Origin: Halorubrum sp. JWXQ-INN 858
GTDB lineage: Archaea > Halobacteriota > Halobacteria > Halobacteriales > Haloferacaceae
Assembly (NCBI RefSeq): GCF_009806985.1
Contig: NZ_WUAX01000016.1
Coordinates: 1 to 64,000 of the forward strand
Direction of reading: 5' to 3'
DNA length: 64,000 bases
Positions 4,446 through 55,964 of the stretch are shown one piece after another (the stretch's first letter is position 1; each line of letters begins with the position of its first letter). The notes below the pieces were generated by a model. That model made no database searches and was not told where the DNA came from. It saw only the letters and a program-made list of their open reading frames with translations. The position numbers were made by a program, and so were the translations under genes.

Positions 4446-4511
4446 ACGAGGACATCCATCGCCCGACTTAAGAACGGTCCGGACCCGGGCGCGGAACGAA
4501 CGGGTCCCGTG

Positions 4512-4592
4512 CGAGGATCTCGTCCGGAGGATCCCGCCCGAGGGTCTCGTCCGGAGGATCCCGCCCGAGGGTCTCGTCCGGAGGATCCCGTA
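4512..4592. repeat. three tandem 27-bp units in a divergent promoter region
   Basis: Three almost identical 27-bp units (4512-4538, 4539-4565, 4566-4592) share the core tctcgtccggaggatcccg. They fill much of the spacer between the divergently transcribed carboxypeptidase and threonine aldolase genes and end about 48 bp before the aldolase ATG. Copy number could affect promoter spacing for either gene; this is inference. Confidence 0.85.
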
Positions 4593-4639
4593 CGGAGCGC
4601 GAGCTATTTCCGGTCGGACGCGGTACGGGGCCGTAACCG

Positions 4640-5683
4640 ATGGCCGACGCCAGCGACTTCATCGACCTGCGATCCGACACCGTGACCACGCCCTCGGCGG
4701 CCATGCGCGACGCCGCCCGCGACGCCGAGGTCGGGGACGACGTGTACCGCGACGACCCGACCGTCAACGAGCTGGAGCGCCGCGCCGCCGAGGCGGTCGG
4801 CAAGGAGGCGGCCCTCTACGTCCCCTCGGGGACGATGGGGAACCAGATCGCCGTCACGGTCCACACCGAGCCCGGCGACGAGCTCCTGCTCGAACGCGAG
4901 TCCCACATCTACCGCTGGGAGCTGGCCGGCGCGGCCCGGCTCGCCGGGGTCCAGACCCGGACGGTCGACGCGGGCGACCGCTGTGTCCCCACGCCCGAGG
5001 CCGTCCGCGAGGGGCTCGTGACCGAGGACCTGCACCGACCCGGAACCGGGCTGCTCGCGCTGGAGAACACCCACAACTACCGTGGCGGCACGGCGATCCC
5101 GACCGACCGGCTCGACGCGGCCGCGGCCGCCGCCCGCGACGCCGGCGTCCTGGTCCACCTCGACGGCGCGCGCGTGTTCAACGCGAGCGTCGCGCTCGAC
5201 GTCCCCGCGCCCGAACTCGTCGCCTCGGTCGACAGCGTGATGTTCTGTCTCTCGAAGGGACTCGGCGCGCCCGTGGGGTCGATGCTTGCCGGCGACGAGG
5301 CGTTCATCGAGGCGGCCCGTCGCGTGCGCAAGCTGTTCGGCGGCGGGATGCGGCAGGCCGGGATGATCGCCGCGCCGGGGCTGCTCGCGCTGGAGAACGT
5401 CGACCGGCTCGCCGACGACCACGCCAACGCCGAGCGGCTCGCCGACGGCCTCGACGCTCTCTCCGGCTTCGAGGCCCCCGAGCCGGACACGAACATCGTC
5501 GTCGTCCACACCGAGGGGGCGTCGATCCCGGCGGCCGACCTCGTGGACGCCTGCGCGGATGCCGGCGTCGGCGCGGTCGAGTTCGACACGTACACGACCC
5601 GCTTTACCACCCACCTCGACGTCGACGCCGACGACGTCGACGCCGCGCTCGACCGGATCGCCGGAGCCGTCGAGGAGCTGTAG
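4640..5683 (+). CDS. ltaE: low-specificity L-threonine aldolase
   Basis: PLP-dependent fold-type I lyase of 347 residues, splitting L-threonine or L-allo-threonine into glycine and acetaldehyde. The N-terminal family signature FIDLRSDTVTTP is present. The PLP-binding Lys is about residue 206 (CLSKGLGAPVGS), the pyridine-nitrogen Asp is about 175 (LVHLDGAR), and the phosphate-binding SGTMGNQ motif lies near 63. Length and motifs match the beta-eliminating lyase / threonine aldolase family. It is monocistronic and converges on the second histidine kinase. Other beta-hydroxy amino acids could also be substrates. Confidence 0.92.
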   Translation: MADASDFIDLRSDTVTTPSAAMRDAARDAEVGDDVYRDDPTVNELERRAAEAVGKEAALYVPSGTMGNQIAVTVHTEPGDELLLERESHIYRWELAGAARLAGVQTRTVDAGDRCVPTPEAVREGLVTEDLHRPGTGLLALENTHNYRGGTAIPTDRLDAAAAAARDAGVLVHLDGARVFNASVALDVPAPELVASVDSVMFCLSKGLGAPVGSMLAGDEAFIEAARRVRKLFGGGMRQAGMIAAPGLLALENVDRLADDHANAERLADGLDALSGFEAPEPDTNIVVVHTEGASIPAADLVDACADAGVGAVEFDTYTTRFTTHLDVDADDVDAALDRIAGAVEEL

Positions 5684-5727: not shown

Positions 5728-5890
5728 CTTATAAATCGTCTTCGCAGCATCGCTTATAAGCTACTTTCACAGCAGCACATATAAACGCCTCTCGCGAGAG
5801 TACCTTATAAGCACTCTCGCGGCGCTGTTCATGAATCATCACTTCGGCACTGTATATGAATTACTGCCCCGGAATCACTTATAAATTCGT
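5728..5890. repeat. seven-unit, 25-bp-period array of TATA-like sequences
   Basis: A degenerate tandem array lies between two convergent genes. Units begin at about 5728, 5753, 5778, 5804, 5828, 5853 and 5878, a period of 24-26 bp. Each starts with a TATA-like core (cttataaa, cttataag, catataaa, cttataag, ttcatgaa, tatatgaa, cttataaa), followed by about 17 bp of GC-rich, poorly conserved sequence. The unit heads are conserved and the tails are not, the reverse of a CRISPR array. They resemble haloarchaeal TATA boxes but no gene start follows. Confidence 0.85.
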
Positions 5891-5924: not shown

Positions 5925-7871
5925 TCACCCCTCCAGTTTGAACTCGAACCGCGCGCCGCCGGCCGCGCCCGTCATCGCCCGCACGTCCCAGCCGTGGGCC
6001 TCCGCGACGTGTTTACAGATGGCGAGTCCCAGCCCGGTGCCGTCGGGGTCGGTGGTATAGCCGCTCTCGAAGAGTCGCTCGGCGTCGTCGTCGGGGAATC
6101 CTCGACCGTCATCCTCGACGTAAAACCCCCCTGCCCCGCCCGAACGGAGCTCCATGGCTCCGACCCGGACGGTGAGCCGGTCGTCGGTGCTGTCGGTCGA
6201 AGGGTCGCCCGCGGAGCCGCCCGGCGATGGAGCGTCGCCAGTGCCCCCGTGCTCCACGCTGTTCCGGAAGAGGTTCTCGAGCAGCTCGCGGACGCGGTTC
6301 GGGTCGATCTCGCACGTCCGATCCCCCTCGACGACGAGCTCCGCGTCCCCGGTGTCGACGCCGTTCCACGCCTCCTCGGCGAGCAGCGCCAGCGACCGCT
6401 GCTCGGTGTTGCCGACGACCCGTCCCTCGCGAGCTAACGAGAGCAGGTCGCTCACGAGCTCGTCCATCCGATCGAGCGCGTCGTCCACCCGATCGAGGTG
6501 GTCGACGGCGGTGTCGGCGTCGTGGACCGTGTCGGTGTCAGTGGGGGTGTCGGCAGCGGGGTCGGCGTCGGTGGGGGTATCGGCAGCCTCACGGACGAGC
6601 TGGAGGTATCCCTTCGCGACGGAGAGCGGGTTCCGGAGGTCGTGGGAGACGATCGCGGTGAACTCGTCGAGCTGTTCGTTCTGCCGCCGGAGCCGCGCCA
6701 GCCGCTCCCGTCGATCGGTCACGTCGGTGTAGATCGCGTAGCCGGACGCGTTCTCCGCGTCGAGGTGGATGGGGATGACGTGCAGGATGAAGTGCCGGTC
6801 GCCGTCGACGGTCCGCCGGGTCACCTCGCGACGGACGTTCTCCCCGTCACGGAGCTTCGCGTTCAGTTCGATGGCCCCGGCCGACGCGACCGCGTCGGCC
6901 GGGACGATGTAGTCGTCGACCGACTCGCCGATCACGGCGTCCGCGTCGTAGCCGAACGTCCCCTCGAACGCGGAGTTCACGCGCCGGACGATCGAGTCGC
7001 CGTCGACGAGGTCGCACGCGACGGCGGGGTCCGGAACGTTCTCGAACAGCGCCAGCAGCCGGTCGCGTTCGTCCCGGAGCGCCGCGTTGACCCGAAGCCG
7101 GCTGCGCGTTTCCTCGAGGTGTGACGCCAGCAGCTCCGCCAGCTCCAGGTCGCCCTCGTCGAACGCGTCGGTCCCCGTCGACACCGTCTGGAGGACCGCG
7201 TCGTCGCCGACGGCGACGGTGAGGGCCGATCCGTAGACGTCGTGGTCGGGGACCGTCTCGATGACCGGGTCGCCGGTGTCGAGCACCGTCCCCGCCACGC
7301 CCGACCCGACGCGAACGCGCTCGCGATCCCCCGGGAGCTCGTCGGTCGAGACGGCGACCGGCTCGATCCAGTCGCCCTCGAGCACTCCGACGATACAGTG
7401 GTCCACCGAGAACACCTCCTCGGCGATGGCGACGGCGGTCCGGAACGCCTCGGCCGACGACTCCGCCGTCGCGAGCCGGGTCGTCCCCGCGTGGAGCCGC
7501 TCGATGCGCGACGGGCCGTCGGCGTCGGCGTCGTGAAGCGTCCGCCGGGCCCGACGCGCGAAGAGCCACTGAAGCCGCGTGCCGACCTCCTCGGGATCGA
7601 CCGCGGCCGCGTCGACGATCGGATCGACCGCGACGGGATCGGTCGGGTCGTCGACGAGCGCCACCAACGGCGCGTCGGCATGTGACCCCTTTACACGGTC
7701 GAGACCCGAGCGTCCGACGATCACGAACGCGTCGGCCGCGGCGAGCACCTCGTCGTCGACGGCCGACGGCGACGTGTGACTGACGGAACCGACCGGGAGC
7801 GGGTCCGTAAACGGAACGGGACGGCTCGACAGCACGACCACCGCCCGCTCGTCGACGAACGAATCTACCAC
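5925..7871 (-). CDS. GAF-PAS sensor histidine kinase
   Basis: Predicted cytoplasmic histidine kinase of 648 residues. The first ~120 residues resemble a degenerate receiver-like fold. They are followed by a GAF domain (about 130-280), a PAS domain (about 290-395, ending at TDVTDRRERL), HisKA with the acceptor His near 410 (FTAIVSHDLRNPLS) and HATPase_c (NLFRNSVEHG, EDDGRGFP, GTGLGLAICK). Two insertions are odd. A Thr/Asp/Pro-rich acidic stretch of about 25 residues sits inside the HisKA helical hairpin, and a Gly/Ser/Asp stretch follows the N box. Domain order from GAF onward resembles the kinase at 312-2777, so the two may be paralogues. Signal and partner are unknown. Confidence 0.85.
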   Translation of the reverse strand: MVDSFVDERAVVVLSSRPVPFTDPLPVGSVSHTSPSAVDDEVLAAADAFVIVGRSGLDRVKGSHADAPLVALVDDPTDPVAVDPIVDAAAVDPEEVGTRLQWLFARRARRTLHDADADGPSRIERLHAGTTRLATAESSAEAFRTAVAIAEEVFSVDHCIVGVLEGDWIEPVAVSTDELPGDRERVRVGSGVAGTVLDTGDPVIETVPDHDVYGSALTVAVGDDAVLQTVSTGTDAFDEGDLELAELLASHLEETRSRLRVNAALRDERDRLLALFENVPDPAVACDLVDGDSIVRRVNSAFEGTFGYDADAVIGESVDDYIVPADAVASAGAIELNAKLRDGENVRREVTRRTVDGDRHFILHVIPIHLDAENASGYAIYTDVTDRRERLARLRRQNEQLDEFTAIVSHDLRNPLSVAKGYLQLVREAADTPTDADPAADTPTDTDTVHDADTAVDHLDRVDDALDRMDELVSDLLSLAREGRVVGNTEQRSLALLAEEAWNGVDTGDAELVVEGDRTCEIDPNRVRELLENLFRNSVEHGGTGDAPSPGGSAGDPSTDSTDDRLTVRVGAMELRSGGAGGFYVEDDGRGFPDDDAERLFESGYTTDPDGTGLGLAICKHVAEAHGWDVRAMTGAAGGARFEFKLEG

Positions 7872-8000
7872 GAATTGGTCGACGATTGGTGACAGCCATC
7901 ATAACGTTACCGGCTGACTAATCAATCTCGATAACTGATCGGATGGTCGATACGATCCGGAGCTCCGGCGGCGGGTCCCGTCGATAGGGGACGACGACGG

Positions 8001-8120
8001 TCGCGGGGGACCGATGTCGGACGTGACGAGCGATGTCGGTCGCGGGGGGACCGATGTCGGACGTGACGAGCGATGTCGGTCGCGGGGGGACCGATGTCGG
8101 ACGTGACGAGCGATGTCGGT
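8001..8120. repeat. three 40-bp tandem units upstream of alaS
   Basis: Units 8001-8040, 8041-8080 and 8081-8120 are identical apart from the first base or two, and a degenerate fourth begins at 8121. Each unit contains cgatgtcgg twice, so there is an inner half-period near 20 bp. The array occupies the ~360-bp spacer between the divergently transcribed kinase (start 7871) and alaS. Apart from this array and the alaS promoter, nothing else was recognised in the spacer. Confidence 0.9.
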
Positions 8121-8210
8121 CGCGGAGGACCCGTGTCGTCAGTTGCGGGCCGCATCCGGCGTAATAGACCGGCTTCGGCCCGCTCCCCGTGCCGAGCCGC
8201 CCCCGGAACC

Positions 8211-19179: not shown

Positions 19180-19255
19180 GAGGAGAAGGGAGAGAAACGA
19201 GGAGAAGGGAGAGAAACGAGGAGAAGGGAGAGAAACGAGGAGAAGGGAGAGAAAG
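19180..19255. repeat. polypurine minisatellite, four 19-bp units
   Basis: Four 19-bp units (gaggagaagggagagaaac) lie at 19180-19198, 19199-19217, 19218-19236 and 19237-19255, within a nearly pure purine run that continues to about 19275. It separates the convergent acyl-CoA dehydrogenase and citrate synthase genes and ends about 30 bp past the citrate synthase stop codon. On the citrate synthase transcript strand it reads as polypyrimidine. Confidence 0.9.
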
Positions 19256-19303
19256 GAGGGAAAGGAAGGGGCGAGGCGAACCCGCGGTGGCCGACGATGG
19301 CCG

Positions 19304-25510: not shown

Positions 25511-25740
25511 TGGTTGAAATTGGAACGGCACAACCACAAGACGTGACCGGGCCTCCGCGCCGCGCGGCTGTCGAGACGCCGGTGAACGCCGGCATCGCGA
25601 GCGCGTAGCGGGAGACGTCGGCGCACTGCTACAATCCCAAGCCGTGGGCGAAACGTCCCCGGCGGGTCGGATTTGCAGCTGTGCTGTTCCCGTTCGATCG
25701 GTCACCGTCGCCCCTCTTAAGGGTGTTCTTGTGTAGCTGA

Positions 25741-27527: not shown

Positions 27528-27600
27528 CTTATAAACAGCGGGACGGGCCCAGGTGCGCTTATAAACGACGGGACAGTGAGCCGGAGTGCCTTATAAATCC
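27528..27600. repeat. TATA-like array, three units about 31 bp apart
   Basis: The core cttataaa occurs at 27528, 27558 and 27590, spaced 30 and 32 bp, separated by GC-rich DNA (gacggg appears in each spacer). The style matches the 25-bp array at 5728-5890. No gene begins downstream in either direction at the proper spacing. Confidence 0.75.
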
Positions 27601-27689: not shown

Positions 27690-27777
27690 CCTCCCCAGCC
27701 TCGGCAGGCGGGCCGCCGCCGGCTCCCGCCCGGCGGCGGCCCGCCTGCCTCCCTCGCGCGCGTTGCTCGCGCGCGCC
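27690..27777 (-). repeat. two-hairpin intergenic element, copy A
   Basis: Read on the minus strand, this element has a CG-alternating hairpin (cgcgcgcg arms, 27768-27775 and 27755-27762, loop of five), then gaggga, then a perfect 20-bp stem (27730-27749 with 27703-27722, seven-base loop), then cgaggctggggagg. The same order and flanks occur, inverted in the genome, at 38563-38642, where the second stem has a different sequence but still pairs. No coding potential is seen. Confidence 0.85.
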
Positions 27778-27875
27778 GACGTGGGACGGCCGTGTCGGGG
27801 GAGGAGTGTCGGATGAGCGAGGACTGCGACGAGCGGCGGATGGACGACTGCGACGCTCGGTCGCAAGCATCGGCC

Positions 27876-27950
27876 CTTATAAACGGACCGTCCGATCCAC
27901 GGACGGATTACAACCTCGGTTGTGGCGGGAGAGAGCGACTTATAAACTCG
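27876..27950. repeat. second TATA-like array, about 30-33-bp spacing
   Basis: The core cttataaac occurs at 27876 and 27939, with a degenerate gattacaac near 27906, again about 30-33 bp apart. Together with the array at 27528-27600 it brackets hairpin element A. Confidence 0.6.
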
Positions 27951-39432: not shown

Positions 39433-39505
39433 CGTCACCCCCAACGGTCGGACGGCCGGACGACCGACCGGTCCGCCACCGACTGACCCGTCGGCCGGTC
39501 GACGC

Positions 39506-39555
39506 CGTTCCGCCTTTTAAGAACTGGCCCCGTTCCACCTTTTAAGAACTAGCCC
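39506..39555. repeat. 25-bp duplication carrying the cobQ stop codon
   Basis: Units 39506-39530 and 39531-39555 differ at two bases and share ccttttaagaact. The second contains the last codons and stop (TAA, minus strand, 39542-39544) of cobQ, so a near-copy of the gene end lies just downstream. On the plus strand each unit carries a tttt run, which might serve as a terminator for the converging flavoprotein gene. Confidence 0.88.
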
Positions 39556-41284
39556 CGTCCCGATCGGAGAGGCCCTCCGCATCGTCGCCGATCGGGAGCT
39601 CTAACGCCGCGAGGTCGACGTGGTCGCGGAGGAGGTCCGCGGCGCGGTCGTACGGCGTGGTGCCGTCGCCGCCGGTCCGCTCGGGCGGCCGCTCGATCCC
39701 CGTTCGCTCCCGCAGGTGGCTGATAAAGGCCGAGCGAACGGGATCGTTCTCGAACAGGCCGTGGAGGTAGGTTCCCATCACCCGGTCTGTCGCCGCGCCG
39801 AGCGCGACGCCCGAGCGCCCCTCGGTCCCGCGCCCAGCCCCGTCCCTGGCCTTAAAAGGCATCGAGAGCGCGTCGCCCGAGCGGTCGGCTTCCGCCCCAC
39901 TCGACGAGCCGGCGTCTCCGGCGGGTCGCGTCTCCCCCATGTGGATCTCGTAGCCGGAGACCGGGACGTCCCCGGAGCGTTCCCCGTCGAGTCCGCTCAA
40001 CGGGCCGCCGGCGTCCGAGTCGAACAGCAGCTCGGTCGCGACGACCCGCTTGTCGGCGTCGAACGTCGTCTCGACCGGCAGCAGGCCGATCCCCTCGACG
40101 ACGGGGTCGGGGGCGTCGCCGTCGGCGACCGCGCTCTCGACGCCGGCGTTCCGGATCCGCTCGCCGAGCAGCTGATAGCCGCCACAGAGCCCGACGATCG
40201 GGCCGTCGAACCCGCGGAGCGCGTCGTCGAACCCGGCCTCGCGGCAGGCGAGCAGGTCGTCGACGGTGTTCTTCGTCCCCGGCAGGACGACCGCGTCCGC
40301 CCCCCGAAGATCGTCCTCGAGCGGGACGTACGCGACCCGGACGCCGGGCTCGGCCGCGAGCGGTTCGAGGTCCGTCGCGTTCGAGATCCGGGGCAGCCGC
40401 GGGACCGCCACGGTGACCGCTCGCCCGTCCGGGACGCCGTCGTCCGCGCCGTGGACCGCCCGCTCGCCCGCGGCCGGGAGCGCCACGCTGTCCTCCTCGG
40501 GGAGCCCGGGGTCGTCGTACGGGATCACGCCGAGGACCGGCACCCCCGTCCGCGCCTCGAACGCATCGAGCCCGGGCTCCAACAGGGCGACGTCGCCGCG
40601 GAACTTGGTGATGACCGCGCCGACGACGCGGTCGCGGAGGTCCTCGGGGAGGAGCTCGAGCGTCCCGACGAGCGAGGCGAAGACGCCCCCACGCTCGATG
40701 TCGGCGACGAGCAGCACGTCCGCGTCCGCGAACCGGGCGGTCTCGACGTTGGCGAGGTCGCGGTCGTGGAGGTTGATCTCCGCGATCGACCCCGCGCCCT
40801 CCGCGACGACGACGTCGGCGTCCGCGGCGAGCCGACGGTGTGCGGCCACGGCGGCGTCGCGCGCGTCGTGCCAGTGGGCGTCGTAGTAGCCGCCCGCGGC
40901 GTAGTGGGCGACCGCCCTCCCGTCGACCACCAGTTGGCTCTCCCCCTCGCCGCGGGGCTTCAGGAGGACGGGGTTGTGGTCCGTCTCCGCCGGCACGCGC
41001 GCGGCACGGGCCTGTACGTACTGGGAGACGCCGATCTCGCCGAAGCCGTCACCCGAACCGTCTTCCGCGGCGTCCCGCGAGCCGTCCTCCGGGACGACGC
41101 CCGACGTCGGCACGGCCCGCGCGTTGTTCGACATGTTCTGTGCCTTGAACGGGGCGACGGCGACGCCCGCGTCCGAGAGGAGCCGACAGAGCCCGGCGAC
41201 GACCGTCGACTTGCCGACGTGCGAGGCGGTGCCGGCGACGAGGAGCGTGCGAGCGTCGCCGGGGGCGAGGGTCGGAGCGGTCAC
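39542..41284 (-). CDS. cobQ: cobyric acid synthase
   Basis: Glutamine-dependent amidase of 580 residues that amidates adenosylcobyrinic acid a,c-diamide in cobalamin synthesis. The N-terminal ATPase domain starts [21 protein letters not shown] and has the family signature [10 protein letters not shown]; the amidotransferase domain has the catalytic Cys in [14 protein letters not shown] and the terminal His in [12 protein letters not shown]. An acidic, Ser/Gly-rich insertion lies before that His. The start is GTG at 41284, overlapping the upstream small gene (GTGA). It is the third gene of the cobA - small gene - cobQ operon. Confidence 0.95.
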
Positions 41285-46453: not shown

Positions 46454-46501
46454 ACCCGGTGATCCTCCGCATGCCTACTTTAATCTGTGTGTCCGATGGG
46501 C

Positions 46502-46631
46502 GGCCCTTCGGCGACCGTCCGACGAGCGCCCCTTCGGCGACCGCCCAACGAGCGCCCCTTCGGCGACCGCCCAACGAGCGCCCCTTCGGCGACCGCCCAA
46601 CGAGCGCCCCTTCGGCGACCGTTCAACGGAA
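46502..46631. repeat. five 26-bp tandem units
   Basis: Consecutive 26-bp units begin at 46502, 46528, 46554, 46580 and 46606, with core gccccttcggcgaccgccca. The three middle copies are identical; the outer ones are diverged. They lie in the divergent region between the universal stress gene (start 46453) and the glutaredoxin-peroxiredoxin gene (start 46732). Confidence 0.92.
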
Positions 46632-55140: not shown

Positions 55141-55220
55141 CCTCACAGCGTCGAACTCACCGTCACAGCGTCGAACTCATCGTCACAGCGTCGAACTCAT
55201 CGTCACAGCGTCGAACTCAT
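55141..55220. repeat. four 20-bp units carrying copies of an SDR gene's 3' end
   Basis: Four consecutive 20-bp units (55141-55160, 55161-55180, 55181-55200, 55201-55220) share tcacagcgtcgaactca. On the minus strand each spells the end of the SDR reading frame (Met-Ser-Ser-Thr-Leu-stop), and the last unit is the real gene end (stop at 55203-55205). Confidence 0.93.
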
Positions 55221-55964
55221 CGCGCCGCCGTCGTGCGGGAGCGCGACGCCGTTCACGAAGCTCGACCGGGGCGAACAGAGGAACGCGACCACTTCACCGA
55301 ACTCCTCGGGGCGGCCGATCCGCCCCATCGGGAGACCGGCCCGCCGCGCCTCGAGGTCGAGCCCCTGTGACACCAGCTGGTCGATCCGCGGCGTGTCGTG
55401 CAGGTGCGGGAGCAGCGCGTTGACGCGGACGTCGGGCGCGAGCTCTGTCGACAGCGACTTCTCGAGGCCGAGGACGCTCATCCGGACCGCACTGGAGAGC
55501 ACGTTCGACGGATTCGCCTCCTTGGCGACACACGACGTGACGGTGACGACCGTGCCGCCGCCGTCCGCCCTGAGGTGTGGGCCGGCCTCGCGGACCAGCC
55601 GGACCACGCTCATCACGAGCAGGTCGAACGCGTCGTACCACTCCCGATCGGTCGTCTCGAAGAACCGCCGCCCCGGCGGTCCGCCCGCCGACGTCACGAG
55701 GTGGTCGAGCCCGCCGAACCGCTCGACCGTCGCCTCGACGAGGCCGGTGACCGCGTCCGGGTCGGTGATGTCCGCGGCGACCGTCTCGACCGCCCCGGTC
55801 GCCTCCGCACGCACCTCCGCGGCGGCGGCCGCGAGCCGCTCCTCGTCGCGCCCGTTTATCACGACGTTCACCCCTTCCCGCGCCAGCGCCGCCGCGGACG
55901 CCTTGCCGAGGCCGCTGCTCGATGCCGTGACCAGTGCCGTGTTGCCGTCGATGTCAAGCCCCAT
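55203..55964 (-). CDS. SDR family protein without the usual YxxxK
   Basis: Short-chain dehydrogenase of 253 residues. The NAD(P) motif is ALVTASSSGLGKASA and the SAGGPP loop corresponds to NNAG. At the catalytic site the Ser is present (VVTVTSCVAKE), but the Tyr and Lys positions read NVLSSAVRM, so the canonical Tyr-Lys pair is absent. A known SDR subgroup has this pattern. The start is MGLDIDGNTALV at 55964. The end of the gene is part of a fourfold 20-bp repeat. It probably oxidises or isomerises an intermediate of the sugar-acid pathway, or binds a nucleotide. Confidence 0.85.
   Translation of the reverse strand: MGLDIDGNTALVTASSSGLGKASAAALAREGVNVVINGRDEERLAAAAAEVRAEATGAVETVAADITDPDAVTGLVEATVERFGGLDHLVTSAGGPPGRRFFETTDREWYDAFDLLVMSVVRLVREAGPHLRADGGGTVVTVTSCVAKEANPSNVLSSAVRMSVLGLEKSLSTELAPDVRVNALLPHLHDTPRIDQLVSQGLDLEARRAGLPMGRIGRPEEFGEVVAFLCSPRSSFVNGVALPHDGGAMSSTL

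Follow-up and report, generated by a model that had tools for sequence, protein, structure and literature searches.

The window, that is, the whole stretch of 64 kb that was analysed, belongs to a genome of 3.1 Mb. Near its left end a threonine aldolase gene and a sensor histidine kinase gene face each other (Table 1), which bears out the convergent arrangement given in the first-pass annotation. By this aldolase, with 82-86% identity, the nearest named relatives of the genome are Halorubrum species. The two genes are separated by a gap of 241 bp with 54% G+C, compared with 70% G+C for the window, and this gap contains the array of seven units.

Table 1. Positions of the genes, array units and repeat elements in the window
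Feature	Position	Strand	Basis
Threonine aldolase / beta-eliminating lyase family (PF01212), upstream convergent gene	4640-5683	+	ORF; Pfam E=1.9e-97
Array, seven ~25-bp units with AT-rich palindromic heads	5728-5890	none	sequence, tail homology, shuffle tests
Head 1, TTATAA (CTTATAAA)	5729-5734	none	sequence
Head 2, TTATAA (CTTATAAG)	5754-5759	none	sequence
Head 3, ATATAA, one mismatch	5779-5784	none	sequence
Inverted repeat CGCGAGAGT-acc-TTATAA-gc-ACTCTCGCG centred on head 4	5793-5821	none	sequence, predicted stem
Head 4, TTATAA (CTTATAAG)	5805-5810	none	sequence
Head 5, TCATGA, two mismatches	5829-5834	none	sequence
Head 6, ATATGA, two mismatches	5854-5859	none	sequence
Head 7, TTATAA (CTTATAAA)	5879-5884	none	sequence
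GAF/PAS sensor histidine kinase, downstream convergent gene	5925-7871	-	ORF; Pfam HATPase_c, HisKA, PAS, GAF
Related array, three TTATAA (27529/27559/27591), spacing 30/32 bp, left of hairpin element	27529-27596	none	pattern searches
Dispersed hairpin element: CTCCCCAGCCTCG, long GC-rich inverted repeat, CTCCCTCGCGCGCG, second hairpin	27691-27785	+	pattern and locus comparisons
Related TTATAA pair (27877/27940), right of hairpin element	27877-27945	none	pattern searches
25-bp tandem pair, head CTTTTAAG, in another convergent gap	39505-39558	none	tandem-repeat and gap analysis

An old tandem array

The seven AT-rich heads with a period of 24-26 bp that had been described from the sequence were confirmed by the head-to-head spacings (25, 25, 26, 24, 25 and 25 bp) and by the A/T autocorrelation, which has its maximum at lag 25 (0.235; p ~0.003, as 6 of 2000 dinucleotide shuffles reach this value at any lag from 8 to 60). 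The description needs one correction, namely that exact TTATAA is present in only four of the seven heads, while the other three are decayed. These four copies compare with 0.07 expected, and none of 2000 dinucleotide shuffles reaches three. Moreover, the tails of the array are homologous to each other, with 53% mean identity (z = 4.0 versus composition-matched shuffles). Such homology of head-to-tail units is what marks a minisatellite, and it reaches z = 19 in other arrays. TRF at score 30 missed the array at 5728-5890. Since the seven units have diverged but homologous tails, the array is, judged by its sequence, an old tandem repeat (minisatellite) with a unit of about 25 bp rather than a chance run, and the palindromic octamer YTTATAAR appears to be its sole well-kept part. 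Helical phasing was dropped as the cause of the period, since spacings of 22, 25, 32 and 34 bp all occur and do not correspond to whole numbers of helical turns.

The inverted repeat around head 4 resembles the TTATAA-centred hairpins of the dispersed element described below. Membership of the array itself in the hairpin family is only suggested by this resemblance.

Related arrays in the window and the genome

The less regular relatives proposed at 27528-27600 and 27876-27950 are real and consist of three TTATAA and one TTATAA pair, respectively. The 63 bp between the members of the pair equal two periods with a decayed middle unit. The tandem pair at 39505-39558 is possibly an array of the same kind that has a different AT-rich palindrome as its head. 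The window also contains further minisatellites at 4505-4597, 7998-8125, 19180-19259, 46500-46628 and 55143-55222, with periods of 27, 40, 19, 26 and 20 bp.

We then examined the genome by pattern searches and sampled stretches, on which all genome-wide statements here are based. YTTATAAR octamers number 264, compared with 16 for the control pattern, and TTATAA pairs 5-35 bp apart number 64, compared with 2 for the reversed control. Genome-wide enrichment of spaced motifs had been set beforehand as a refutation test, and its outcome was thus positive. The pairs fall into spacing classes of 24-26 and 30-34 bp; multiples of 50-51 and 63-64 bp also occur, where the middle head has decayed. Tail identity within arrays is 100% in L112 (26 bp x 4), 85% in L111, 73% in L106, 63% in L104 and 53% in the array at 5728, which indicates arrays of all ages and supports, as far as origin is concerned, the earlier idea of a slipped repeat. 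Tails of different arrays in the genome have a mean identity of 49% (a raw figure, without a null), which gives no sign of a common interior and argues against their having been copied from a single mobile sequence. Local growth of each array is the probable origin.

These sequence comparisons place the array in a family of intergenic repeats that is lineage-specific and occurs in Halorubrum and a sister genus. A search of Rfam with the window and the hairpin-core loci returned only the S15-Halobacteria ribosomal protein leader (RF03143), which lies on the minus strand at 25623-25693, and the plasmid records searched with the array gave no match. No relevant description of TTATAA repeats in Halorubrum or haloarchaea was found in the literature searched. 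Together with the hairpin element beside them, the arrays thus make up a widespread Halorubrum family of intergenic repeats that is apparently undescribed in Rfam and the searched literature.

The dispersed hairpin element

The layout of the hairpin element is CTCCCCARCCTCG, a variable well-paired stem, CTCCCTCGCGCGCG, a second hairpin and GCGCGCCACCGCA, as seen in the window copy and in L159-L188 and L189-L228. Written in short, the element is CTCCCCARCCTCG-hairpin-CTCCCTCGCGCG. The stem changes in sequence from copy to copy with its pairing kept. The first motif CTCCCCARCCTCG has 33 exact copies in the source genome, and every Halorubrum genome searched contains the element in 8 to about 190 copies. 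It has no match in Rfam and is a possible ncRNA or REP-like mobile element. In two species a second conserved part, CCAAAGCCCCAGCCG-hairpin-CGGCTGCCCCTTTGAGTCCCACCC, lies upstream of the element (L189-L228).

Among the matches listed, 17 of the 36 arrays are located within 500 bp of the hairpin element, and arrays occur on both of its sides. TTATAA is found at most 300 bp from the hairpin core at 24 of 30 loci in the source genome (two overlapping pairs included) and at 19 of 20 in G094, versus 6 of 48 comparable gaps. In several copies (L160, L165, L175, L187, L211, L216 and L225) TTATAA is the exact centre of the hairpin. G019, a genome without TTATAA excess, has 124 hairpin cores with TTATAA near only 1 of 20, which indicates that the element does not need TTATAA and that TTATAA is an addition in some lineages.

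Symmetry of the motif

We compiled 154 distinct TTATAA sites, of which 136 have a pyrimidine at -1 and 140 a purine at +1. Further out, C and G are the commonest bases at -3 and -2, respectively, and again at +2 and +3. The consensus, which the non-promoter sites have in common, is the dyad CGY-TTATAA-RCG, with the palindromic form CGYTTATAARCG, and such symmetry is as expected for a dimeric binder. Arrays were detected via their TTATAA heads, and this ascertainment bias makes the better conservation of heads than tails a biased test of selection. A purine at +1 is present in about 130 of 138 non-promoter sites versus about 10 of the 16 TTATAA lying 22-55 bp upstream of start codons; in this wider promoter set the base at +1 is C in six.

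Location of arrays relative to genes

The arrays are placed at the downstream ends of genes, with a preference for convergent gaps. The sample consisted of the 36 own-genome arrays among the matches listed of the pair search, with their neighbourhoods; gene calls came from a simple codon model, so that individual boundaries may be off. Of these arrays, 13 occupy convergent gaps, 21 co-directional and two divergent ones. In an unselected sample of 464 kb, intergenic bases by length are about 54% co-directional, 32.8% divergent and 12.8% convergent. For the 36 arrays among the matches listed, the convergent excess has p = 3e-4 and the divergent deficit p = 1e-4. The 19 arrays among the matches listed that have no hairpin element include 11 in convergent gaps and none in divergent ones. 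In other Halorubrum species and the sister genus (g25; Halopenitus persicus is among the carriers), five of eight arrays of at least three units without the hairpin element occupy short convergent gaps, and the convergent gaps that hold arrays of at least three units there are 89-169 bp long.

Distribution within the genus

Across 52 Halorubrum genomes the ratio of YTTATAAR to its control ranges from about 0.5 to about 20-fold, with the highest counts being 626 versus 33 and 571 versus 26. The octamer falls below its reversed control in G019 (22 versus 45), G033 (44 versus 98) and G095 (21 versus 31), and this deficit could reflect avoidance, for example in response to a restriction enzyme or as a guard against spurious TATA boxes. 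Spaced TTATAA pairs number from 0 to about 60 per genome. Rich species are alkaliphilum (59), salipaludis (47), salsamenti (45), aidingense (34), halophilum (33), distributum (26) and lipolyticum (25), and poor ones are saccharovorum (5), coriense (2), californiense (1) and persicum (0). Arrays of three strict units are present in four of 293 genomes of the order, belonging to two genera only. The family has undergone lineage-specific loss and gain, and the absence of an excess in some Halorubrum genomes such as G019 indicates that its function is dispensable in the genus. In G009, G015, G017 and G088 we also noticed a 34-bp unit, TTATAAACAGCCGMCAGCAACACC...TTATAA, that is dispersed over many loci and, unlike the arrays of the window genome, has a conserved interior.

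We also compared the region downstream of the aldolase. Relatives in which the next gene is convergent can have TTATAA there (L234, L245, L257) or a decayed form of it (L240, L233), and none was found in the examined relatives with a co-directional next gene. Within the saccharovorum group the orthologous gap contains TTATAA in L025, TTATAG/TTATAA in L245 and TTATGA/TCACGA in L024/L240; this free decay of heads suggests that any one array is under weak selection, or under selection in certain lineages only. An orthologous array was not found in close relatives, and the match in the Halorubrum genomes searched is the aldolase end alone. The only cases found of a kinase-like end after the aldolase, in Halalkalirubrum and Natronocalculus (L052, L059), have no TTATAA.

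Comparison with known repeats

Bacterial REP/BIME elements are short palindromic repeats with tens to hundreds of copies per genome, which are clustered downstream of coding regions, mainly between convergent or co-directional genes; in E. coli, REPs are sites for gyrase, IHF and Pol I (PMC3733652, PMC1525189). By analogy, they are the best match in behaviour for the array family, which is likewise a high-copy short palindromic intergenic unit and which, in 34 of the 36 arrays among the matches listed, is situated between convergent or co-directional ORFs. By sequence the array is not a REP/BIME: the palindrome is an AT-rich core of only 8-12 bp, the units run head to tail, the host is archaeal, and the seven units have no common tag, unlike REPs with GTAG or CGTC beside their stem-loop.

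The palindrome-associated transposable elements (PATEs) of Haloquadratum, which are haloarchaeal, intergenic, palindromic, present in many copies and devoid of coding sequence (PMC3119063), may be the nearest kin of the hairpin element associated with the arrays. However, PATEs have IS605-like ends, whereas this element keeps its pairing while the stem sequence changes. In halovirus HF2, repeated AT motifs in intergenic DNA are promoters, with scattered copies of 58 or 29 bp that contain BRE, TATA and start elements (PMC8707807). The arrays described here, unlike the HF2 repeats, are placed at gene 3' ends. CRISPR arrays, made of identical repeats of at least 20 bp with unique spacers, share with them short conserved repeats, regular spacing and variable DNA in between. 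CRISPR was ruled out, since the heads have 6-8 bp and the tails, instead of being unique, show mutual homology.

Possible function

To our knowledge, little is known about how archaea handle colliding transcription and supercoils. On sequence and position, the repeats at gene ends are probably binding sites or boundaries and not promoters, and the combination of a dyad motif with a place between convergent genes points to a function that works in both directions. Our main reading, to which we give a probability of roughly 0.4, is that the array is a REP/BIME-like lineage-specific intergenic repeat whose heads form a row of putative sites bound by a sequence-specific dimeric protein or by a factor that handles DNA topology. 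This factor would bind where two transcription units collide, and the bound array would be a two-way boundary at gene ends that either blocks read-through or absorbs positive supercoils like bacterial REP/BIME clusters; the protein, its binding and the boundary are what we infer. The architectural or protein site proposed in the first-pass annotation is compatible with the palindromic consensus and the gene-end location, with its role being putative. If the heads are binding sites, the arrays would represent a natural lineage-switchable boundary between convergent genes in archaea, and the on/off pattern inside one genus would make the responsible factor findable by genome comparison. A more specific version, which we consider unlikely, is an archaeal insulator system in which a dimeric protein found only in some Halorubrum/Halopenitus lineages would recognise CGYTTATAARCG arrays, spaced at 25 or 32 bp, both in convergent gaps and next to hairpin elements, and would set up two-way transcriptional or topological boundaries as a counterpart of BIME topological insulators.

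The main and close rival of the boundary reading, to which we give a somewhat lower probability, is a neutral or selfish repeat. Units would arise by slippage or from a mobile hairpin element, spread in the lineage and be tolerated downstream of genes, where there is no promoter to break; TTATAA would be kept for the mobilising or duplicating machinery and not for the host. The range from perfect arrays (L112) to almost erased ones, the dispersed 34-bp unit of other species, TTATAA on both flanks of the hairpin element, the great variation of copy number within the genus, with some species lacking arrays, and the decay of orthologous arrays in some species are all consistent with it. However, array interiors are not common to loci in the source genome, a dyad consensus and a preference of the arrays for convergent rather than co-directional gaps are more than tolerance alone would give, and hairpin elements are equally numerous without TTATAA enrichment, as in G019. 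If this reading is right, arrays and hairpin element would still constitute a widespread Halorubrum intergenic repeat family.

An RNA-level 3'-end signal, in which the array on either strand would end or process both convergent transcripts as a two-way terminator, processing or stabiliser element, is quite unlikely. It would agree with the location at gene ends, with TTATAA being identical on both strands, with the lack of any TTTT or AAAA run in the aldolase/kinase gap, and with the folding of this gap, which is somewhat better than that of shuffles (z -2.3 and -3.8). However, the intergenic terminators known from haloarchaea consist of T stretches (PMC7237163), and the source genome likewise has an excess of T4 runs right after stops, whereas TTATAA is not concentrated there and does not exclude T4 (p = 0.27); the advantage of other solo arrays over shuffles in folding is slight (mean z -1.1 and -1.7). 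A T-run terminator was itself dropped for this gap, which has no T run just downstream of the stop.

A cluster of TATA boxes, either as a TBP/TFB sink or as a set of antisense promoters, as the first-pass annotation had proposed, is very unlikely despite the HF2 precedent: divergent gaps are avoided (2 of 36 arrays among the matches listed), the heads lie at gene 3' ends with palindromic flanks rather than 22-35 bp before a start with a directional flank and BRE, no BRE-like sequence is evident before the heads of 5728-5890, the purine bias at +1 is weaker at promoter sites, and other members of the genus manage without arrays, a range from none to about 20-fold enrichment that fits poorly with any requirement for TATA boxes. 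Judged by position, TTATAA does appear to serve also as a TATA box elsewhere in the genome, with 12 of about 44 copies in the unselected 464 kb lying 22-35 bp upstream of a start codon.
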